Shown in pieces: positions 754-14,293 of a stretch of 16,793 bases of DNA. Below the pieces are notes generated by a model. It saw only the letters and a program-made list of their open reading frames with translations. It was not told where the DNA came from and made no database searches. Position 1 is the stretch's first letter, and each line of letters starts with the position of its first letter. The stretch comes from Rhodocyclaceae bacterium (GTDB lineage: Bacteria > Pseudomonadota > Gammaproteobacteria > Burkholderiales > Rhodocyclaceae): NCBI GenBank assembly GCA_030689585.1, contig JAUYFZ010000278.1, positions 1 to 16,793 on the forward strand. The letters run 5' to 3'. The translations under genes and the position numbers were made by a program.

Positions 754-3217
754 GAACAACCGCTTGCTTCGGTTTACGACCCAAAGTGGGGGCGGATGAT
801 TCCGTGGAAGGGGTGATTGCCCGCTGCTGAGTTTCGATCATCACGAGTCCGGCCTGCTTGAGAGACATGGTTTCCACCACAGGGGCCACAGAAATCGGAG
901 CCGGAGCGGGGGGGGTGATCTTGACAATGGGCGGTGCGATGATCTCCAGCACAGGTGCGGGGTTCATCACAGGCATGCTTTCCGTAACAGGCGTGCTTTC
1001 CGTAGTAAATGCGAGTTCACTCTGCGCGAGCACTTCCACGGCGGGCTGTTCGTCAGCGACACCTCCGCTACGCCCCCTGCCTCGTCCTTTACGACTATTG
1101 CGACCATTACGATTCTCGCGTTGCCCTTCCTGTGTTTCGGGAGGGGCAGCGTTTGGCAGAGCTTGCGATTCGTTCACGAGAACAGGCTCTCGATCCTGTT
1201 TTTTGGCTTCACCTCGTTGACGGGGTTGATTACGATTTCGGTTCTCCTTCTGTGGTTGCGGATCAGAAGGTTGTTCATTTCGCACAGGGTCATTTCGCAC
1301 AGGGTCATTTCGTTTAGGTTGTTGCCCCCCCTTATCAGGGCGTTGTTGCCTGTCTTGGCGCGGTGCAGCATCACGCGATGCATTACGTTCGCCACGGCCT
1401 CGTCCAGGGCGACGATTTTCATCGCCACGATCGCCACGATCGCCACGATCATTATGTCCACCGCGTCCACGATCTTTGCGATCCGCAGATTTTTTGGGGC
1501 GGGACGCAGAGGGTGACGGGGAGGATGTCCCCTTGAAGAACGCGATGATTCTGGCAAAAAAACCTAGTGGAGCATTTCGCTGAAGCGGTTCGACGATGGG
1601 GGCAGGAGAACCGAGCGTGATGCTTTTAACAACGGCTTCTTGTTTTGGGGTTTCTTTTTGAGCCGAAGGCGATTGATAGGCTTCTGCTGATTTTTCAGCT
1701 TTCTCGACCATCTGATAGCTGGGGGTGACGACCTCTTCCTCATTGAGCTGATCGTGCCGGAATCGGGCAATTTCGTGATGGGGAGTTTCCAGGTTGCGGT
1801 TGGGAACAATCACGAGATTGACGCGATGGCGTACTTCAATGTGGGCGATATCGACACGTTTTTCATTGAGCAGGAAGGTTCCTACATCGACAGGAACCTG
1901 AATGTGAAGGGCTCCCGTATTTTCCTTCATGGCCTCTTCTTCAATGATTCTAAGGATATGGAGTGCCGCTGATTCTGTGGAGCGGATATGACCCGTGCCG
2001 GTGCATCGCGGACAGGTGATGTAGCTGGTTTCAGCGAGGGCCGGACGTAGACGCTGGCGTGATAATTCGAGTAGTCCGAAGCGGCTGATTTTGCCTGTTT
2101 GAACGCGGGCACGGTCAAAGTGCAGTGCGTCGCGCAGACGATTTTCGACTTCGCGCTGGTTTTTGCTGCTCTCCATGTCGATGAAGTCGATGACGATCAG
2201 TCCACCCAAATCGCGTAGGCGGAGTTGTCGTGCCACTTCTTCGGCCGCTTCTAGGTTCGTCCTGAAGGCGGTTTCTTCGATATCAGAACCTTTGGTGGCG
2301 CGTCCCGAGTTCACATCCACGGAGACCAAGGCTTCCGTGTGATCGATAACAATCGCTCCGCCTGAAGGCAGGGTGACTTGGCGCGAGTAGGCCGATTCGA
2401 TCTGGTGTTCGATCTGAAAACGCGAAAACAGGGGAACGTCATCGCGGTAACGTTTCACACGGGCCAAGTTGCCCGGCATGACGTGCGACATGAATTGCTG
2501 GGCTTGTTCAAAGATGTCATCGGTATCGATCAGGATTTCGCCAATCTCCGGATGGAAGTAATCCCGAATGGCACGAATGACGAGGCTGGATTCCTGATAA
2601 ATGAGAAAAGCACCGCTTTGGGATTGGGCCGCTCCGTCGATGGCGCTCCAGAGTTGTGCCAGATAGTTGAGGTCCCACTGGAGTTCTTCGTAAGTACGGC
2701 CAATACCAGCGGTACGGGCGATCAGACTGGCCCCGGGTGGGGCTTCCAGTTGATCCATGACCTCGCGTAGTTCCTGGCGATCTTCTCCTTCGATGCGGCG
2801 CGACACCCCCCCCCCGCGAGGATTATTGGGCATCAAAACAAGATAGCGGCCCGCCAATGAAATAAAGGTGGTGAGTGCCGCCCCTTTGTTGCCTCGCTCA
2901 TCTTTTTCAACTTGGACAATAATTTCCTGACCGACAGTCAGGGCATCTTGAATACGTGCCTTGCCTGCGTCGATGCCTTGTTTGAAATAAGCGCGTGAAA
3001 CTTCCTTGAAGGGAAGAAATCCGTGTCGCTCGGCTCCATAATTGATGAAAGCAGCCTCGAGGCTGGGTTCGATACGGGTGATGATTGCTTTGTAGATGTT
3101 GCTTTTGCGTTGCTCTTTGGATGCCGACTCGATGTCGAGGTCAATTAATTTTTGACCATCAACGATCGCGACGCGAAGTTCTTCGGCCTGCGTCGCATTG
3201 AATAACATGCGTTTCAT
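704..3217 (-). CDS. rne: Ribonuclease E
   Basis: This 837-residue endoribonuclease starts RNA decay and processes rRNA and tRNA precursors. Start: the ATG at 3217 (MKRMLFNATQ) follows a GGGAG at suitable spacing and matches the family N-terminus; an upstream in-frame ATG would only add leader sequence. The S1 domain spans about residues 37-118. The catalytic metal ligands are Asp301 (in DVNSG) and Asp344 (in IDFIDM). The Zn-link cysteines are Cys402 and Cys405 (CPRCTGTG). Beyond about 510 the chain is a disordered scaffold: a hydrophobic stretch at 551-563 (LGFFARIIAFFKG) could be a membrane-targeting helix, and an Arg/Gly-rich region at about 578-720 suits RNA binding. A G10 tract (2806-2815) encodes GGGV at 135-138. 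The 3' end overlaps the convergent phosphatase gene. Confidence 0.97.
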   Translation of the reverse strand: MKRMLFNATQAEELRVAIVDGQKLIDLDIESASKEQRKSNIYKAIITRIEPSLEAAFINYGAERHGFLPFKEVSRAYFKQGIDAGKARIQDALTVGQEIIVQVEKDERGNKGAALTTFISLAGRYLVLMPNNPRGGGVSRRIEGEDRQELREVMDQLEAPPGASLIARTAGIGRTYEELQWDLNYLAQLWSAIDGAAQSQSGAFLIYQESSLVIRAIRDYFHPEIGEILIDTDDIFEQAQQFMSHVMPGNLARVKRYRDDVPLFSRFQIEHQIESAYSRQVTLPSGGAIVIDHTEALVSVDVNSGRATKGSDIEETAFRTNLEAAEEVARQLRLRDLGGLIVIDFIDMESSKNQREVENRLRDALHFDRARVQTGKISRFGLLELSRQRLRPALAETSYITCPRCTGTGHIRSTESAALHILRIIEEEAMKENTGALHIQVPVDVGTFLLNEKRVDIAHIEVRHRVNLVIVPNRNLETPHHEIARFRHDQLNEEEVVTPSYQMVEKAEKSAEAYQSPSAQKETPKQEAVVKSITLGSPAPIVEPLQRNAPLGFFARIIAFFKGTSSPSPSASRPKKSADRKDRGRGGHNDRGDRGDRGDENRRPGRGRGERNASRDAAPRQDRQQRPDKGGQQPKRNDPVRNDPVRNEQPSDPQPQKENRNRNQPRQRGEAKKQDREPVLVNESQALPNAAPPETQEGQRENRNGRNSRKGRGRGRSGGVADEQPAVEVLAQSELAFTTESTPVTESMPVMNPAPVLEIIAPPIVKITPPAPAPISVAPVVETMSLKQAGLVMIETQQRAITPSTESSAPTLGRKPKQAVVLNAEPMQMVETHPTVS
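1276..1312 (-). repeat. 15-bp direct repeat in rne (NDPVR units)
   Basis: Two exact 15-bp units (1276-1290 and 1291-1305) plus seven bases of a third encode repeated NDPVR in the disordered C-terminal part of RNase E, about residues 637-647. The unit is a multiple of three, so copy changes would keep the frame. Confidence 0.85.
1421..1447 (-). repeat. 9-bp tandem repeat in rne (RGD units)
   Basis: Three exact copies of ATCGCCACG on the plus strand encode the RGDRGDRGD stretch near residues 591-599 of RNase E, inside its Arg/Gly-rich RNA-binding region. This is coding simple-sequence repeat, not CRISPR. Confidence 0.85.
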
Positions 3218-6618: not shown

Positions 6619-6752
6619 TTTATTGGCTCTATGCATACACATGCTCGAAAAGCGCGTAGCGCGTTCGCCGCCTTTCAATTCTTCGCCACCACCGTGTCGT
6701 AAAGTCCATAGTGAGACAAGCCTAGGTGGCTCTCAATACCCGTATAGCGTAG
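6619..6752. other. Convergent intergenic region at the left edge of the defence island
   Basis: No gene is seen here. A stem CGAA-CGCG/CGCG-TTCG (6646-6667, three-base bulge) lacks a T-run, so it is a weak terminator candidate. A 12-bp palindrome GCGTAGCTACGC (6747-6758) spans the helicase stop codon. TTGGCTCTAT at 6623-6632 is an inverted copy of a 10-mer in repeat copy A (190-199). The junction between core genes and island probably lies here. Confidence 0.45.
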
Positions 6753-9215
6753 CTACGCATCTTCATAGCGACGGAAGGCGAAGACGGCCTGGTTCATCTG
6801 CTCGGTGTTGAACACCTTGAGGCGGACGAGCAGGTGAAAGTCTTTGACCGTCAATCCGGTAACAGCAAGAAAAAGGTCTGGTTCGAGTTTGGTGATGACA
6901 TCCTGCAACGTGTTCTCGCGGAAATCGGTGAGGTACATAAACGCCGGAATGCGGGTTGCGAACTTGATCAGCTTTTCCTGAACCAGCTTGCGCTTGGACT
7001 TGTATTCCCTCTCCTCGTCGGAGAGTTCCTTCTTCTCCTTTGCCGACAAGTCCCCGTTCTTCGCCTTGTTCTTGAGTTCCTTGATCTTCTCGCTTTTGTT
7101 GATGATGGTCTCGATAATGTGGTCGCCGAGTGCTCGCCAGCCTTCGATGCGCTCCACGGCGGCCATCGCATCGGGATTGCCCATGATGCGCCGGAGCGTG
7201 TCGTTATCGACGTTCACCAGCAGTGCGCTCTCCCACTTACGTGCCAGCAGCGTCGCCGACGTGCCCGCCATCGCGATGTCGAGAATGCCGCCCGCGTCAA
7301 TCTGCGTCATGTTCGCGCCGTCATAGGCCAGCACAGGCAGGAAGGACACCAGCTCCTTAACCGCATTCTCCGGGTTCGGCTCATTGGGAGACAGGCCGAT
7401 CCCGTACTCCGAGAGTTGCCGCAGGGCGCGGGTGGGCGCGAAGTCGAATACGAAACAGACCGGCTTGAGAATCTCCTCCTCGTTGGGGTTGTCGCCGTTG
7501 GGATTCTTGATGGACCACGGCGACTGCACGCGAAACGCGGCCTGAAAATAGGTCTCGGGCGACTTGAGATTGCGCAGCATCAGGATCGACGACCACTGCG
7601 ACACGGTGATGCCTGTAGTGAGCTTGCCGCACGAGAGCGTGATGGTCTTGGTGTCGAATCCGCTGCCGATGGCCTTGCGCACTGGCGGCAACGCCTCTAA
7701 TCCGATTCCCGCCGAGGCGCCTGCGGCGACGACCACTTTGTACTCATGCCAGAAGACATTGTGCTTCTCGGCCAGCAGGTTGGCCATCGCATGACAGGCC
7801 GCGACGTTGGGCAGGAACCAGAACGAATGTTGCAGGTAGGGCAGCAGGCGCACATCGGAATACGGGAACGGTGGCCGCGTCCCCGTCTTCAAGTGCTCCA
7901 CCGATTTGGACGCGTAGCCCCCCCGGATGATGTCCAACCATTTCTGCACATCGCTCTTGTGCTTGAACTGTGCCGCGTTACCTGTGCCCGATGCTTCGAA
8001 GAAGGTGTTGAGATCGAATTCGTCAAACTCGCCGCCGCTCGCAATAGCCAGTAGCTCATCCGGCATTTGATAGGTCAGCAGCCGCATCTGCGGCAGCGCA
8101 GCGTAGGGGTTCCGCTGGCCCGGATTTTGGGTGGGAAACGCCTCCTTGGCACGCTGCTCGTCGGTGTAGGTCCAGTTGAATATCTGTTCCTCGATGAACT
8201 CGCCGGTCGCCAGCGCCTTGAACGGTGTGCCGGAGAGGTACAGGTACGCCTTGGTGGTGATGGGCAGGAACTCGGCTTCCTTCTCCGAGAGCACAGTGAG
8301 GTCTTCGTTCATCTCCTCCAGCCCAACGGCGTATTCGAGCTTGGCCTCCTTCTTCGCGACGGCCTCCTCTTCGCCTTCGAACAATTCTTTTGCGGTCTCG
8401 CGCCAAGCCCCGAAGTGGTACTCGTCGAACACCACAAGATCCCAATTTACCGTGTGCAGCCACTCGTTCTTGGGTTTGATGTTCCCGACTGCGTCGCGAC
8501 CGAGCAGGTCCTGAAAGGATCCGAAATAGACCACCGGCTTCTTGCGGTCAATCTGCGTTGGGTCGCTGCCGGACGAACGCGAGAGGTACTGCCAGCCATT
8601 GAAGTCCACATGGTTTTCCAGGTCGGTCTGCCAGGCATCTTCCACCGCCGGTTTGAAGGTGAGCACCAGTACCCGCTTTGCGCCGAGCTTCTTGGCCAAC
8701 TGGTAAGCGGTGAAGGTCTTGCCAAAGCGCATCTTCGCGTTCCACAGAAAGCGCGGAGCAGCGTTCTTTTTTTCGGCCCAGATCGACTTGTAGTAGTCAA
8801 AAGTCTTGTTCACAGCCTCGGTCTGCTCCCAGCGCATCGGGAAGGTTTCGTGATGCGTTCCCGTGAAGTGCTGGCCGGTGCGCAGCTCGGTAAGTACAGT
8901 TTTCACTTCCTTGAGCGAACAGCGCATCCACTCCAACTCGACGTTCTCGAAACCTTTCCTGACAAGTGCCGCACGCACTTCGTGATCGCTGAAGAGGGTG
9001 CCGTCGTCGCGCTCGGCGAACTCGTCGAGTTCGATTCGGTAGTTCTTGATGGCCGCAGTCTTAAGCTGCTCGGCAACGCGTTGCTTCACGTCGCGCGTGG
9101 TCTGACCTACCTTGAGGAGACCCTTGTGCGCCTTGTCATCAATCGAATAGGCGTAAATGCGCGGTCGGGCTTCCGGCTTGGGCGCGAGGACTTCCTCGAT
9201 GCTGGGTTTACTCAT
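6753..9215 (-). CDS. GIY-YIG (T5orf172-like) nuclease fused to superfamily 2 helicase
   Basis: This 820-residue protein joins an N-terminal GIY-YIG-like domain of the T5orf172/MUG113 type (about residues 18-115; RIYAYSID, then LLKVGQTTRD) to a restriction-type SF2 helicase. Helicase motifs: Walker A-like MRFGKT (162-167), DEYH (264-267), SGTPF (328-332), TTGITVSQW (533-541) and the motif VI-like QAAFRVQSP (558-566). A charged coiled-coil-like stretch follows near 700-750. The architecture suits an ATP-driven translocase and nuclease that cuts unmodified DNA, like the R subunits of type I/III systems. It is the last gene of the operon; its ATG overlaps the fic stop by two bases (CATGA context). 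The GIY-YIG part is recognised by pattern only, and whether it is catalytic is unknown. Confidence 0.85.
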   Translation of the reverse strand: MSKPSIEEVLAPKPEARPRIYAYSIDDKAHKGLLKVGQTTRDVKQRVAEQLKTAAIKNYRIELDEFAERDDGTLFSDHEVRAALVRKGFENVELEWMRCSLKEVKTVLTELRTGQHFTGTHHETFPMRWEQTEAVNKTFDYYKSIWAEKKNAAPRFLWNAKMRFGKTFTAYQLAKKLGAKRVLVLTFKPAVEDAWQTDLENHVDFNGWQYLSRSSGSDPTQIDRKKPVVYFGSFQDLLGRDAVGNIKPKNEWLHTVNWDLVVFDEYHFGAWRETAKELFEGEEEAVAKKEAKLEYAVGLEEMNEDLTVLSEKEAEFLPITTKAYLYLSGTPFKALATGEFIEEQIFNWTYTDEQRAKEAFPTQNPGQRNPYAALPQMRLLTYQMPDELLAIASGGEFDEFDLNTFFEASGTGNAAQFKHKSDVQKWLDIIRGGYASKSVEHLKTGTRPPFPYSDVRLLPYLQHSFWFLPNVAACHAMANLLAEKHNVFWHEYKVVVAAGASAGIGLEALPPVRKAIGSGFDTKTITLSCGKLTTGITVSQWSSILMLRNLKSPETYFQAAFRVQSPWSIKNPNGDNPNEEEILKPVCFVFDFAPTRALRQLSEYGIGLSPNEPNPENAVKELVSFLPVLAYDGANMTQIDAGGILDIAMAGTSATLLARKWESALLVNVDNDTLRRIMGNPDAMAAVERIEGWRALGDHIIETIINKSEKIKELKNKAKNGDLSAKEKKELSDEEREYKSKRKLVQEKLIKFATRIPAFMYLTDFRENTLQDVITKLEPDLFLAVTGLTVKDFHLLVRLKVFNTEQMNQAVFAFRRYEDA

Positions 9216-10234
9216 GACAAGCTTTCGATGACTTCCCAGTGACCGGCCTTGTCGGAGCCGACACGGTTGAGCCGACCCTGTTCACGGAGTGTTTTGAGAT
9301 GGCGTTCTACGGTTCTCGTGGTCTTGTTCAGCAGGGTCGCCAACTCCCGGGCGGACAACTGGGGCTGCCGCACCAGCAATTCCAGAATTCCGTCGCTTAC
9401 ACCGACATTTACACCGACATTTACACCGACATTTACAGGAACATCGGCTACCGTCTCCGTCGCGACATCTATGTACTTGTACAGCGAATTGCCAATGGCA
9501 TCGAGCATAAAACTGATGAACGGACGGCAATCCATCGCGCCAGCATGTGAATCCTGCAACGCCTTGTAGTACAGCGCCTGATTGTGGTGAACCAGGGTTT
9601 CGACCGGCATCCAGGCAAACAACGGATTCCACTGGGCAAGAATCAGCGTTTGCCACAACCTTCCGATTCTGCCGTTGCCGTCACGGAAAGGATGGATATA
9701 TTCCAGCATGTAGTGGACAGCGGAACTCTTGATAAGCGGGTGCGCCCCGCTGGACTTCCCCCAGTCCAAGAGCTGCTCAACCCGATCGGGGACTTGAGCT
9801 GATAGCGCGCCGCGATGCAACAGCGTGCCATCGCCACTCACCACAGCCACACCGCCCGAACGGAACTGACCCGATTCGCCGATTAGCGCATCGGTCAGGT
9901 GCGCGTGCGCCCGCAGCAAGTCGGCTGACGACCAAGGGTCATAGCCAGGCAACTCGTTGTAGGCATGCCAGGCGTTCTGCACCTCTTTGATGTCCTTGGG
10001 AGGCCCCCAGACCGGTTTGCCGTTAATGACATCGGTCACCTGGCCCAAGGTGAGCTGGTTGCCTTCAATGGCAGTTGAGGCGTGCACCGAGAGAATGCGA
10101 TTGAGCCGGCGCAGGTGCAGCACATCACCGGACTGCTCCTCGCTGATCTTGACGCGCTCCAGCAGGGCGTGAATCGCGCCGATATTTTCGTGCCACTTCG
10201 GGTCTTCTGTGAAGAACTTCTCAAGCGGAGTCAT
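9212..10234 (-). CDS. Fic family protein with C-terminal winged helix
   Basis: This 340-residue protein has the complete Fic motif HPFRDGNGRIGR (181-192), which in active members transfers AMP from ATP to a target hydroxyl group. An N-terminal STAIEGN (53-59) matches the class II auto-inhibitory helix (S/T)xxxE(G/N), with Glu57 as the predicted blocking residue. The C-terminal segment (about 281-335) reads as a winged helix (LSARELATLL, then TTRTVERHLKTLREQG), so DNA binding or autoregulation is possible. Between them lies a VNVG repeat linker (about 267-278). The ATG has GGAGAG just upstream and sits 15 bp after the YhcG stop; the stop overlaps the helicase start. Its role in the defence operon (toxin-like, regulatory or passenger) is inference. 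Confidence 0.92.
   Translation of the reverse strand: MTPLEKFFTEDPKWHENIGAIHALLERVKISEEQSGDVLHLRRLNRILSVHASTAIEGNQLTLGQVTDVINGKPVWGPPKDIKEVQNAWHAYNELPGYDPWSSADLLRAHAHLTDALIGESGQFRSGGVAVVSGDGTLLHRGALSAQVPDRVEQLLDWGKSSGAHPLIKSSAVHYMLEYIHPFRDGNGRIGRLWQTLILAQWNPLFAWMPVETLVHHNQALYYKALQDSHAGAMDCRPFISFMLDAIGNSLYKYIDVATETVADVPVNVGVNVGVNVGVSDGILELLVRQPQLSARELATLLNKTTRTVERHLKTLREQGRLNRVGSDKAGHWEVIESLS
9397..9444 (-). repeat. 12-bp tandem repeat in fic (VNVG units)
   Basis: Three exact copies of TTACACCGACAT (9397-9408, 9409-9420, 9421-9432) and a degenerate fourth (9433-9444, three mismatches) encode the Val-Asn-Val-Gly linker between the Fic core and the winged helix. The unit keeps the frame, so slippage would change linker length rather than switch the gene off. 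Confidence 0.9.
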
Positions 10235-10249
10235 GAGCGGCTCTCCGGC

Positions 10250-11419
10250 TTACTCATCGGCGCTGCCCTCAAGGGCGGATTCGATGAGGCATCGCTCTTT
10301 TTCGATCTCCAGCCGGAGTTGCTCTTCGGTTGGCAGGTTGGGCAGGTATTTCGAAGCAAAAACCTGCCTGTTCTCGTTCAGGATCGAATATTTGGCCACC
10401 GCTTCGCCTTTGTCCGAGCAGAGCAGCAGGCCAATGGTGGGATTGTCGCCTGGGATTTTGAACCGGTCTTCGTAAAGCCGCACATAGCCGTCCATCTGCC
10501 CGACATCGGCATGGGTGAGTTTGCCCATTTTCAGATCAAGCAGCAGAAAGCACTTCAGGACATAGTTGTAGAAAACCAGATCGATGTAGAAATCGTCGTC
10601 CCCGAAGCGGATGTGCTTTTGCCGGGCGACAAAGGAAAACCCCTTGCCGAGTTCCAGCAGGAAGTTTTGCAAGTTGTCGATAATTGCCTGTTCGAGTCTG
10701 CTTTCATGCAGCTCACAAAAATCGGGAAGCCCCAGAAACTCCAGCACCATCGGCGACTTGAGCAGATGGGATGGCTGAACCCTTTCGCCGGGCAGGCGCT
10801 CACGGCCATCGGGCAGCAGCCCCTTCTCGCCGCGATTGGCCACAATCCGGTCATAGTAAAAACTGTGAATCTGCCTTTCCAATTGCACCTTTGACCAGCC
10901 GCATTCGCTGGATTCCCGTTCGTAGAAGTCGCGGGCAGCCATATTTCCTACCCGCATCAAGGCGCGATAATGCGACCAGGTGAGTTGCGGCGAGAAAGTC
11001 TGCAGGGATTGGCTACCTGCTGGGGATGAAATAAGGGGGGCAGCCAATTCTCTTCCCGCCGGGGAGAGAATCCCTGCCGTAGTCGATTCTCTTCCTGTCG
11101 GGAAGAGAATCGCATTTCTATCGGAATACGCCAGGTAGAACTGCCTGAAACTCCACAACACCGGGGAGGAAAATCCCTTACCGTACCGCTGCGTCAGCCG
11201 TCCGGACAGGTCTGCAATGACTTTTTTGCCATACTCAGCCCGCACCTCGCCACCCTGCAATTCCTGCACGATCTCGCGCCCGATCAACCAGTAGGCCAGC
11301 ACCATCTGGGTGTTTACAGCCTGGACAACATTGCCCCGCGCCTGATCAAGGATGGAAACGACGCGCCCAAAGAGGGCTTCCGGCTTTTCCGCAGAAATCT
11401 GCCGCTTGGGTTTATTCAT
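10250..11419 (-). CDS. PD-(D/E)XK nuclease, DUF1016/YhcG family
   Basis: This 389-residue protein has an N-terminal DUF1016_N helical domain (about 12-100, with AYWLIGREIVQ and WSFRQFYLAY) and a C-terminal YhcG nuclease domain (about 220-365). Candidate catalytic residues are Asp280 in FYIDLVFYN and Asp295/Lys297 in LLDLKMG. I chose the ATG at 11419 (MNKPKRQ), which overlaps the methylase stop by 8 bp; an ATG at 11446 would add nine residues. Residues about 103-140 are an extra segment of three related units (LFPTGRE, LSPAGRE, SSPAGSQ) encoded by palindromic DNA and lying in the linker before TWSHYRALMRV. Family members often sit in restriction loci, but their substrate is not settled. Confidence 0.88.
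   Translation of the reverse strand: MNKPKRQISAEKPEALFGRVVSILDQARGNVVQAVNTQMVLAYWLIGREIVQELQGGEVRAEYGKKVIADLSGRLTQRYGKGFSSPVLWSFRQFYLAYSDRNAILFPTGRESTTAGILSPAGRELAAPLISSPAGSQSLQTFSPQLTWSHYRALMRVGNMAARDFYERESSECGWSKVQLERQIHSFYYDRIVANRGEKGLLPDGRERLPGERVQPSHLLKSPMVLEFLGLPDFCELHESRLEQAIIDNLQNFLLELGKGFSFVARQKHIRFGDDDFYIDLVFYNYVLKCFLLLDLKMGKLTHADVGQMDGYVRLYEDRFKIPGDNPTIGLLLCSDKGEAVAKYSILNENRQVFASKYLPNLPTEEQLRLEIEKERCLIESALEGSADE
11007..11112 (-). repeat. In-frame palindromic repeats inside the YhcG gene
   Basis: Two hairpin units lie in the coding sequence. 11084-11112 has perfect 12-bp arms around a 5-base loop. 11047-11071 has 11-bp arms with one G-T pair around three bases. The units share the pattern ATTCTCT...AGAGAAT and are spaced about 38 bp apart. 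A third, decayed unit (about 11007-11035) still encodes SSPAG. All three are read in frame and encode the variable linker of the nuclease. Confidence 0.8.
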
Positions 11420-13064
11420 CGTCGCCTTCGTCCACGGAGACTTCATCGAACAAGTCGCTCGTCAGTTCCATCGGTCGGACAACTTTCTCAATGAACTCGA
11501 TCTCGCTCGCAGAAATGCCATATTTGGCGTACAGGTCTTCGTCCGTCCACCGCTTCGTCCAATCTTGCGTCGGCACGAAGGTGTAGACCTTGCGCGTGGT
11601 GTCTTGCGAAGGCTTGTGCAAAAGAATCAGGAAGCGCGTTAACCGACATGTGAGGTAGGACAAGACACTCTCAGCCTCGACCTTCGAGTCAAGCACCCCA
11701 ATGTACATATATGTCCACGACGAAATACTTCCCGGCTCCCCGATAAATGGGGTGCTGAGGATGCGGTGCGGGTAGGTGTCACGGTTGCCAGTGCCCGGCG
11801 CAGCGCGGCCAATGAAGACTTTCCACTTGTCGAAGACAGATCGTTCCTTTGGAATTTCTGATCTTGCGACGTATCCTATCCCGCCGTTGCGGTAGACCTT
11901 AAGGTCATCACCTGACCTCTTTTCTTTGCCCCTGAATGTGCTTTCGAGACCAAAAGAGCCAATCGAGCTAACAAGCTTCATGAACTTCTTCGCCTCGGGC
12001 AGTTCCAGGGTTTCATTGCTGCCCGTTTCGACGGCCATAACTTTCTTGAGGATCGACAGCCCTTCATTGAAGCGGATGAATACGTCCGCGCCTTTTTCCA
12101 GAAGTGGACGGCTGGCAGTGGAGACAGGCCAGTCCTTGAAATGGGTGGTCACTTCACAGAGGCCGGGATGGTCACGATTCCACAGGAAATAGCAGACGCC
12201 GCCTTTAAGTCCGACCCCTGGAAAAACGTCGGAGGCGGTGAGGAAATCGTCAATTGAGCGCAAGCGAGCATCGTTAAGCATCGACTCACGAAATTCGTCC
12301 AGACCCATGCCACCAGCGAACCATCGGGCCGGAATAATCAGGCATAGAAATCGGGGATCAAGCGTTTTGGCCTGCTGCACGAACTGCTGGTAGATGGGGC
12401 GTGCCTGCGTGCCAAAGCCGTCGGTGTTGAGCTGATACGGCGGATTTCCAATGATGACGTCGAACTGCATATCGCCTCCAAACAACTCGGTCATCCGAGT
12501 CTTGATGTTGTCGGTGTGAATGAACGCGTAAGCGTGAGTTTCCAGCACCTCGCCACGATCCAGCGCCGCCTGGCTGGCACCGCAAAAGGTGCATTTGCTG
12601 TTGGCCCAGGTGTGCTCGGTGCGCTCAAACCAGATGTTGCCCGCGCCACTCGTGAAGGATTTGGCAATGGAGTGCTGGCCATTGGCGTGCTTCGAGCAAT
12701 ACACGCTGCGCCGCGCCAGCAGGCTGGTGAGATGCGTGATGCCGATGCCGAACACCTGTTTGGTCAGAATGTGATTGACGCGCTCGTTGAGGTCAGGCAT
12801 TTCGTCTGCAAGACCTTTGTTCAGACGGTTGGTAATTTCCCGCAGGAACACGCCCGACTTGGTGCACGGGTCGAGGAACTTTACGGTTTTGTCCGTCCAG
12901 AGGTTCGCCCCGTTGTGGCTGGCCGCCCACGCGCAGGCCAAGGTATCCAGCATCCGGTTGGCGAACTCCGGCGGGGTGAATACCTCGTCGTTGGAAAGAT
13001 TGGCAATGCAGGTCAGCACATCGGGATTGCGGCCGCGCAAGGAGAAACTGACCTGTTCGGTCAT
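11412..13064 (-). CDS. Eco57I-like N-6 adenine DNA methyltransferase
   Basis: This 550-residue protein has TPPEFANRML (30-39) and a variant SAM motif I, FLDPCTKSGVF (63-73), where the usual GSG glycine pattern is changed to TKSG. The catalytic motif IV is IIGNPPY, with NPPY at 207-210. A cysteine/histidine-rich insert (Cys123, His126, Cys158, Cys161) between motifs I and IV could bind zinc. The C-terminal half (about 300-550) would be the target-recognition part. It probably methylates adenine in the recognition site of the island's restriction system. Start: ATG 13064 has AAGGAG six bases upstream. An ATG at 13085 overlapping the kilA-N stop would add seven residues, and longer versions run through that gene. 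The stop overlaps the YhcG gene by 8 bp. Confidence 0.88.
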   Translation of the reverse strand: MTEQVSFSLRGRNPDVLTCIANLSNDEVFTPPEFANRMLDTLACAWAASHNGANLWTDKTVKFLDPCTKSGVFLREITNRLNKGLADEMPDLNERVNHILTKQVFGIGITHLTSLLARRSVYCSKHANGQHSIAKSFTSGAGNIWFERTEHTWANSKCTFCGASQAALDRGEVLETHAYAFIHTDNIKTRMTELFGGDMQFDVIIGNPPYQLNTDGFGTQARPIYQQFVQQAKTLDPRFLCLIIPARWFAGGMGLDEFRESMLNDARLRSIDDFLTASDVFPGVGLKGGVCYFLWNRDHPGLCEVTTHFKDWPVSTASRPLLEKGADVFIRFNEGLSILKKVMAVETGSNETLELPEAKKFMKLVSSIGSFGLESTFRGKEKRSGDDLKVYRNGGIGYVARSEIPKERSVFDKWKVFIGRAAPGTGNRDTYPHRILSTPFIGEPGSISSWTYMYIGVLDSKVEAESVLSYLTCRLTRFLILLHKPSQDTTRKVYTFVPTQDWTKRWTDEDLYAKYGISASEIEFIEKVVRPMELTSDLFDEVSVDEGDDE

Positions 13065-13081
13065 TGGGTCTCCTTCAGCAT

Positions 13082-13444
13082 TCATGGTTGTTTCCCTTCC
13101 AGTTGCCGTGTGCCCGCATCGGCCAACAGCAGCTTCATTTGATGAATGGCGGTTTGGTTCAGCAGTGTCAGCCGTTCGGTCTGCGCTACCCATTCTTTGA
13201 CGCTGAGCTTGTAGTTGTTGAGCCCCGCCTGACTTTTAATTGTGGCGAAACCGCCATAATTAAAATTCGGGTTATGAACCTGCTCCCAGATGCCTATAAA
13301 TTCAACGGTGTTACGGTTGCGCAGCCAGTCGGAAATGAAAAACTCCCCATCCTTTGCCCTGAGCATGTCCGTAAGCGAGATGAAATCCTTGTCGTCTTCG
13401 GAATAGACCGTAATGGATGTGCCCTTCACGTTGATTTTCGTCAT
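13082..13444 (-). CDS. KilA-N domain protein, apparently internally deleted
   Basis: The protein has 120 residues. The N-terminal part (MTKINVKGTSITVYSEDDKDFISL onward, in pieces: INVKG, DFISLTDM, WLRNRNTVEFIGIWE, AGLNNYKL) matches the KilA-N DNA-binding fold found in phages and defence loci. Remembered relatives are about 260-280 residues long. Here the chain passes directly from NYKLSVKEW (residues 77-85) to TERLTLLNQTAIHQMKLL, which resembles the extreme C-terminus of relatives. About 150 residues, including the GRYGGT core, appear to be missing without loss of frame. The start has AAAGGAG seven bases upstream, and the gene begins 2 bp after the methylase stop. It may be a minimal regulator or a decaying gene. 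The deletion rests on family memory, not an alignment. Confidence 0.75.
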   Translation of the reverse strand: MTKINVKGTSITVYSEDDKDFISLTDMLRAKDGEFFISDWLRNRNTVEFIGIWEQVHNPNFNYGGFATIKSQAGLNNYKLSVKEWVAQTERLTLLNQTAIHQMKLLLADAGTRQLEGKQP

Positions 13445-13446
13445 GA

Positions 13447-14082
13447 TTATTCTCCTTTGATACCAGTCAACTCGCTCACCGTCATCGGCGAATAGGTCTT
13501 GATCGGAGTAAATATCTCATGCTTGCCGAGGTGAGCGAAGAGAGATCCTTCCTGGCTGAAGGCCGACGAATGCGTCAGGGTGTCGAAGCGAAAGTCGCGG
13601 CGCTGAAACTTTCCCTTGCCCAGGTAGCCCCATTCGGCAAAGGTAATCGGCTCGTTGCGGCTAGTGCACATCGCCAAGGCATCGCCATGCACCAGATTCT
13701 GCGAAAGTACGAATGTGGCTGCGCGATAAAAATTATCGGCCTCCTGCATATTCAGGTAGTCGGCGAAGACTTCCAGCATATTTTCACGGCACTCGGCGAT
13801 GTTGTCGGCCAGAAGCTCGATCCCGTAGATACACATCAGTGCCAGCAGCGCATAGTGCCGCTTTTCAAAGTCAGATTTCCCGAACTTGCACTCGACGGCC
13901 GCGAGCTTGCGCTGCAAGACCTTGACAATAAAGTTACCGCTTCCACATGCCGGTTCCAGAAAGCGAGAATCAATGCGCTCCGACTCTTCCTTCACGAGGT
14001 CGAGCATGGCATCGACCATCCATGCGGGGGTGAATACCTCTCCGTGGTCAGCGACGCGTTCTTTAGACTTGATCAGGCTCAT
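13447..14082 (-). CDS. Small N-6 DNA methylase-like protein (SAM-binding, no NPPY)
   Basis: This 211-residue protein heads the island operon. It has the pre-motif GEVFTPAWMV (14-23), a canonical SAM motif I FLEPACGSGNF (41-51), an acidic motif II-like YGIELLADN (86-94) and NLVHGDAL with Asp134. No (D/N/S)PP(Y/F) catalytic motif follows, so it is unlikely to methylate alone. The length seems normal for this small family as I remember it, so it need not be truncated. With the NPPY-containing methylase two genes on, it looks like one half of a split modification enzyme. The ATG at 14082 has only a weak ribosome binding site, so expression may be limited at this step. Confidence 0.82.
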   Translation of the reverse strand: MSLIKSKERVADHGEVFTPAWMVDAMLDLVKEESERIDSRFLEPACGSGNFIVKVLQRKLAAVECKFGKSDFEKRHYALLALMCIYGIELLADNIAECRENMLEVFADYLNMQEADNFYRAATFVLSQNLVHGDALAMCTSRNEPITFAEWGYLGKGKFQRRDFRFDTLTHSSAFSQEGSLFAHLGKHEIFTPIKTYSPMTVSELTGIKGE

Positions 14083-14143: not shown

Positions 14144-14255
14144 CAGTCTCCCTCCCCTTGAAGGGGCTACCGTATGCACACATCTTTTAACTTGTTGATT
14201 GCACACGGGAAAAGATGCGCACCAAGTTCCCTCCCCTTCAAGGGGAGGGAGACTG
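14144..14255. repeat. Nested inverted-repeat element (MITE-like)
   Basis: Perfect 23-bp inverted arms lie at 14144-14166 and 14233-14255. Inside the 66-bp interval is a second inverted pair, CATCTTTT (14181-14188) and AAAAGATG (14210-14217). A short direct repeat GCACAC occurs at 14176-14181 and 14201-14206. Each outer arm contains the CCCTCCCC core of the dispersed repeat; the right arm is part of copy B. The 112-bp unit has no reading frame and lies between the island operon and the DUF559 remnant. A transcript could form a long hairpin. Confidence 0.75.
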
Positions 14256-14293
14256 CAACAACCGCTTCGATTACCCACTACCGGATAGAGCCA
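14229..14293 (+). repeat. Dispersed palindromic repeat, copy B
   Basis: The palindrome at 14229-14249 has the same 10-bp arms as copy A and differs only in its central base. The downstream block 14250-14281 matches copy A at 31 of 32 bases. It ends with CCGGATAGAGCCA (14281-14293), where copy A has CCGTATAGAGCCA after a 4-base gap. Over palindrome plus block the two copies agree at 51 of 53 positions. Confidence 0.85.

Follow-up and report, generated by a model that had tools for sequence, protein, structure and literature searches.

A DrdVI-type split restriction-modification system in a Rhodocyclaceae bacterium, with KilA-N, YhcG, and Fic genes as probable accessory modules

Six closely packed genes on the minus strand (positions 6753–14082) of a 16,793-nucleotide stretch of DNA from a Rhodocyclaceae bacterium (contig JAUYFZ010000278.1, hereafter the window) raise the question of which system they encode, and of whether all six belong to it. 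ORF calling and Pfam searches on the window confirmed six ORFs on this one strand. Foremost at the upstream end is M1 (13447–14082; 211 aa; N6_Mtase and, slightly below the cut-off, MmeI_Mtase), the putative SAM-binding half of a split adenine methyltransferase, with motifs X, I, II, and III but no NPPY. Between it and M2 (slot A) lies an internally deleted KilA-N gene (13082–13444; Pfam KilA-N), followed by M2 itself (11412–13085; Eco57I methylase), the predicted NPPY catalytic and target-recognition subunit. The second junction, between M2 and R (slot B), is occupied by the optional YhcG (DUF1016) gene for a PD-(D/E)XK nuclease (10250–11419; DUF1016_N and YhcG_C) and by an optional but seemingly dedicated Fic gene with a C-terminal winged helix (9212–10234; Fic and winged helix), in whose linker TRF detects a 12-bp in-frame tandem repeat (9397–9437). 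Last is R (6753–9215; T5orf172 and ResIII), a GIY-YIG/T5orf172 nuclease with an SF2 helicase that forms the restriction subunit and ends at an in-frame stop. All of these features are on the minus strand. Here, the strand and domain assignments of the first-pass annotation stand, though its spacing of up to 17 bp is corrected by the ORF ends, according to which adjoining genes either overlap or have gaps of no more than 15 bp. In fact, Fic lies 15 bp behind YhcG, while the ATG of R overlaps the Fic stop by 4 bp. Though the M2 ORF runs open to 13193 within the KilA-N gene, its start is most likely the ATG at 13085, which overlaps the KilA-N stop; likewise, the YhcG ORF is open to 11446, and the most likely start is at 11419, overlapping the M2 stop. 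Judged from their ORFs, the flanking genes on both sides look housekeeping-like. A palindromic dispersed repeat (CCCTCCCCTTGAAGGGGAGGG plus a tail) occurs in the window at 130–182, 14144–14166, and 14229–14281, and a 27-mer from its tail has 39 copies in the 1.7-Mb genome, many of them close to contig ends. Also, a 26-nt near-palindromic inverted repeat is found within yhcG (11047–11110).

To identify related systems, plasmid proteins were searched with R, and this revealed pDrdVI from Deinococcus wulumuqiensis NEB 479, where M1, M2, and R adjoin with nothing between them and in the same order as in the window. Sequence identity to the window is 69% over 205 aa for M1.DrdVI, 71% over 538 gapless aa for M2.DrdVI, and 78% over 824 aa for the DrdVI restriction protein. 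The earlier proposal that the GIY-YIG helicase (shortened in the window by the stop) is the restriction subunit is supported. The six genes had been thought to match no system that could be named, but DrdVI is a described one, and the window carries homologs of its three genes on one strand and in the M1-M2-R order, with other genes intervening. We therefore favor, at a probability of roughly 0.8, the reading that M1, M2, and R constitute a DrdVI-type restriction-modification system, and that KilA-N, YhcG, and Fic are accessory modules at two recurrent insertion points. Homology, operon composition, slot statistics, and motif conservation support this DrdVI-type reading, and the predicted folds are consistent with it; the recognition site in the window, the docking of R, translocation, cutting, and the roles of the cargo are what we infer. 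While DrdVI shares with the window the gene order, the split methylase, and the GIY-YIG helicase R, it differs in lacking KilA-N, YhcG, and Fic, and its R keeps a C-terminal tail.

The DrdVI paper assigns m6A in GCAGCC to the cloned pDrdVI methylase genes (the M1-2.DrdVI pair) and types DrdVI as IIG. A second paper assigns M1/M2.MaeIV to a family of DrdVI-like split methylase genes (PMC10113651). A third portrays the restriction protein of DrdVI as a translocase fused to a REase, and reports broken Bibersteinia relatives, including one that is M1-like at the N-terminus and M2-like at the C-terminus (PMC4996451). Likened here from its published description, MaeIV of Methanococcus aeolicus has a split methylase similar to DrdVI and a single-strand m6A motif, but is archaeal and has the site GCACY. 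We found no account of cutting by a DrdVI-type R in the literature searched. The window locus is a further member of this published family, and a two-polypeptide methylase is not new.

The locus was also compared with other classes of system. Type IIG enzymes are defined by restriction and modification within one polypeptide, whereas the window has three separate genes. Type ISP enzymes (LlaGI, LlaBIII) similarly combine nuclease, helicase, MTase, and TRD in a single polypeptide, without a separate M1 and with another nuclease, and fusions of R with M2 occur in distant relatives of the window only. A Type I assignment is not borne out, there being no separate HsdS among the six genes and the recognition part lying, by fold match, within M2. 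Scores with the NCBIfam equivalogs MAD2 (24.5 bits vs a cut-off of 720) and PglX (14.6–15.4 bits vs a cut-off of 400) likewise point away from MADS and BREX. YhcG genes beside HsdM-like genes in three other loci (L117, L119, and L130) represent the same kind of accessory gene adjoining a methylase gene, though these methylases are of another family than those in the window, and are HsdM-like by motif pattern only.

The complementary motifs originally noticed in the two methylase proteins proved to be widely kept. In all 79 M1 sequences (window included), motif I is present and NPPY absent, with the motif I glycines (G47/G49) found in 79/79, whereas all 78 M2 sequences (window included) have NPPY and a lysine at the motif I glycine position. 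Moreover, M2 is without an acid at the motif II position, while M1 keeps both this acid (motif II by reading) and the motif I glycine. As far as their sequences tell, M1 and M2 bear conserved, complementary lesions. In predicted fold, M1 corresponds to the N-terminal half of CamA, and M2 is CamA/BrxX/DrdV/LlaGI-like. That the two polypeptides form one modification enzyme, as first suggested, gains support from their travelling together and from the DrdVI and MaeIV papers, which treat M1-M2 as one split methylase. In our proposed mechanism, M1 (the SAM-binding half) and M2 (with NPPY and the target-recognition domain) would make up a single adenine-N6 methyltransferase. This enzyme would modify just one strand of an asymmetric recognition sequence, for which GCAGCC is the prediction. 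Here, the C-terminal part of the window M2 has 67% identity to M2.DrdVI. Over 78 compared rows (one duplicate pair among them), this C-terminal identity to M2.DrdVI forms two humps, with 41 rows at 62–71%, three at 51–52%, and 34 at or below 41%, and the N-terminal part ranges from 52 to 80%. Since the window M2 falls in the upper hump, we predict GCAGCC or a near variant as its site, though a recognition part with about 67% identity is no guarantee of the same site. In five loci (L049, L050, L053, L057, and L058), the N-terminal catalytic part of M2 is distant and the C-terminal recognition part DrdVI-like, likely by an exchange of recognition domains.

How constant the core is was judged from 89 loci, i.e., the best 80 of 103 loci confirmed in an M2 scan of genome contigs, together with the window and eight further genome-search loci having M2 (L004, a duplicate of L089, was removed). 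Because window-derived M2 peptide patterns were used to gather them, distant relatives are under-sampled. Nonetheless, the 80 scanned loci (best 80 of 103) cover 19 named phyla, with five loci unassigned. M1 is upstream of M2 in 84/89 loci (best 80 of 103 plus nine) and whole in 80, being partial in L008, L012, and L062 (contig end) and L082 (3′ relic); in the other five, the DNA before M2 is too short to hold it. Downstream, 82 of these 89 loci have R, whole or partial, with coverage of at least 85% in 72; R is reduced to a 5′ fragment in L039 and L062, masked in L090, and truncated by contig ends in others. Five of the seven loci without R end within or shortly after M2 or cargo, L022 has the first 19 R codons, with other genes following up to the end of the contig, and in L023 masked bases directly follow the R start. 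All three genes are present in 77/89 loci, 55 of which have less than 200 bp at both junctions. True breaks of the trio are rare, these being L082, where M1 is cut to its C-terminal third (1509–1742) beside an intact M2 and R, and L039, where R is only a 5′ fragment (2902–3072) with readable DNA behind. Second M1 and R relics behind the operon in L084 (9802–10119) are possibly a former tandem copy.

The intervening genes behave differently from this core. YhcG and/or Fic ORFs lie behind M2 in 11 of the 89 loci (best 80 of 103 plus nine), namely the window, L002, L013, L016, L053, L062, L063, L065, L074, L078, and L081, and nine of these 11 are among the 82 loci with readable R sequence, 5′ ends included; cargo in L022, L023, L033, L060, and L080 could only partly be judged, as their sequence downstream of M2 is masked or breaks off. 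Fic 5′ relics are present in L084 and L085. Relatives thus regularly lack yhcG and fic, the outcome that the first-pass annotation had itself named as refuting its six-gene reading, and with this, position between the genes of the system no longer serves to make YhcG and Fic part of it. Where both occur, the YhcG-Fic order is seen with intact genes in L065 as in the window, with YhcG truncated or fragmentary in L013 and L062, and as YhcG-Fic-R, with YhcG cut or broken, in L009 (a short contig without M2). The M1|M2 junction is at least 200 bp in 16 of 84 loci (drawn from the best 80 of 103 plus nine), and holds ImmA/IrrE-type peptidase and/or DUF4411 genes in L021, L023, L024, L048, L062, L066, L067, and L081, ORF6N in L016, PDDEXK_3 in L033, a Y1 transposase in L059, and KilA-N in the window, with no gene identified at this junction in L008, L022, L030, and L065. 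Other cargo at M2|R includes FRG (L005), PIN (L048), and Bro-N (L050, L057). When mapped onto a quickly built 65-row tree of R, in which many branches are weak, the presence of YhcG/Fic changes at least nine times (the L084 relic counted). Short R 5′ fragments adjoin cargo in L022 (19 codons), L062 (R 4–53), and L081 (R 1–44), and look as if cargo enters at the R start by recombination. The YhcG leader in L078 resembles the R leader. In the proposed scenario, YhcG, Fic, and the now broken KilA-N would have entered at these two recurrent points, M1|M2 and M2|R.

The three cargo genes differ in how closely they are tied to such operons. Genome G421 has a 273-aa KilA-N, and relative to it the 120-residue window protein is missing about 150 middle residues, with residues 1–89 being 53% identical to G421 residues 1–92 and residues 82–119 being 74% identical to residues 235–272, a two-part match that marks the window gene as an in-frame internal deletion. 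No KilA-N was found in the 88 other M2 loci (best 80 of 103 plus eight). However, it recurs at the M1|M2 place, since G421 (L136) has the full-length gene between M1 and M2 relics, where it has outlived its host system, and G461 has it in two ORFs ahead of a partial M2. YhcG has both DUF1016_N and YhcG_C (2.5e-51) with the PD-(D/E)XK residues in a D...DxK pattern. Its nearest relatives (74–91%) are in L002, L065, L009, L063 (85 aa), and G493, and identity is 27–66% in the remaining DrdVI-type loci; with up to 57% identity in a genome region lacking M1, M2, and R, YhcG is less exclusive to DrdVI-type operons than Fic.

The Fic protein (Pfam Fic 8.9e-18) has the HPFxDGNGR motif of AMP-transferases (HPFRDGNGRIGR) and an N-terminal (S/T)xxxE(G/N) motif, read by eye as STAIEGN, and its inhibitory-motif type we take to be class II. 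Identity to it is 73–83% in seven DrdVI-type loci across phyla (L016, L074, L065, L009, L081, L062 over 253 aa, and L013 over 184 aa), four of which (L074, L065, L081, and L062) have M2 recognition parts only 31–38% identical to that of DrdVI. A search of 150 related genomes matched Fic at E 1e-60 in the window and G385 only, and both of these are DrdVI-type loci. In 398 genomes of the phylum, 25 other Fic places at E 1e-50 show 39–49% identity, and M1, M2, and R are absent from their flanks of about 1.5 kb. All 25 plasmid Fic records are below 60% identity, and at or below 45% among the 20 matches listed. From these sequence comparisons, Fic is a dedicated, co-travelling, albeit optional, subfamily in DrdVI-type operons, with regulator, back-up killer, or addiction module as candidate roles. 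Repeats similar to those of the Fic linker are visible in the L074 Fic region and the L085 Fic relic. The Fic gene lies immediately ahead of R and overlaps it by 4 bp, and its product has a winged helix and is probably self-inhibited. As a long shot, Fic might exert a dedicated post-translational control of R; it would AMPylate R or M2 in DrdVI-type systems of differing specificity, restraining restriction or triggering a YhcG-dependent second attack.

Regarding R, the helicase motifs AKMRFGKT, DEYH, SGTPF, and QAAFR, and Tyr21, Lys35, Gly37, and Thr39 in the GIY-YIG region, are invariant or nearly so among 65 R sequences, and no recognition domain was found in R itself. Plasmids of Enterococcus faecium and Leuconostoc encode R and M2 fused in a 1445- or 1474-aa protein, with M1 separate, which argues for an R-M2 complex. 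Wherever a site is unmethylated, R would dock on M1-M2, and then move along DNA with ATP and cut. R relatives (51–55% identity) also appear in phage records from human faeces (PV036449.1 and MT835565.1). In the window, the in-frame stop follows residue 820, past the nuclease and helicase domains but ahead of a conserved C-terminal tail, of which 25 tail-like residues are readable by eye behind the stop in the same frame (6675–6752, minus strand). By eye, this tail is in 76 of 77 other R rows (some loci give more than one), L008 being the exception, and relatives hold intact R copies. The stop is either a real mutation or an assembly error (the genome is in 314 contigs), and with the tail frame still readable, it would be recent or an error. 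Given this stop and the deleted KilA-N, restriction may be impaired in the window.

Of the competing explanations, a single integrated system with YhcG and Fic as required parts draws on the tight packing, the recurring YhcG-then-Fic order (intact in L065, with YhcG cut or broken in L009, L013, and L062), and close Fic relatives being confined to such operons among the genomes searched. Set against it are the mere 11 of 89 loci (best 80 of 103 plus nine) with either gene, their absence from pDrdVI, the other modules occupying the same slot, and the nine or more changes of state on the R tree, and we regard it as highly improbable. A far stronger contender, if still somewhat short of an even chance, is that YhcG and Fic hitchhike as selfish, addiction-type elements that are functionally unconnected with R. 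The toxin-antitoxin-like modules in the same slots, the decayed cargo (Fic relics in L084 and L085, KilA-N in the window), and the R 5′ fragments beside cargo in L022, L062, and L081 all fit this, but the conservation of Fic at 73–83% across phyla in these operons, with nothing that close elsewhere, suggests a tied function.

Two further explanations concern the core rather than its cargo. Restriction might have been lost in this genome, with M1-M2 persisting as an orphan methyltransferase, a possibility we consider doubtful. Decay is suggested by the stop ahead of a tail present in 76/77 other rows, the KilA-N deletion, R in pieces in L036, L059, L069, L076, and L086, M2 in two pieces in L013 and L054, the R fragment of L039 and the M1 relic of L082, and the relics around an intact KilA-N in G421. 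However, the frames of M1, M2, YhcG, and Fic are open, as is that of R for 820 residues, and their motifs are kept; the still readable tail frame makes for a recent or erroneous stop. Rather unlikely is that methylation is the work of M2 alone, with M1 serving as its structural or regulatory partner. While the M2 model does match complete CamA/DrdV-like enzymes across about 400 residues, and L082 keeps M2 and R beside an M1 relic, the lysine replacing the motif I glycine (78/78) and the missing motif II acid, both features being supplied by M1, speak for the pair, as do the whole M1 in 80 of 84 loci (drawn from the best 80 of 103 plus nine) and the published clones, named as M1-M2 pairs.

Taken as a DrdVI-type system with accessory modules, a puzzling six-gene "new system" becomes a named one, and close gene packing alone is no proof of one machine. 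Given the conserved complementary lesions, the M1-M2 pair poses a sharp enzymological question about its SAM-binding subunit. If control by Fic were true, this would be a restriction system with an active site split over two polypeptides (SAM site vs catalytic motif) and a modifiable restriction arm. More broadly, DrdVI-type operons in 19 named phyla (best 80 of 103 loci) have two recurrent positions that are occupied by interchangeable accessory genes.
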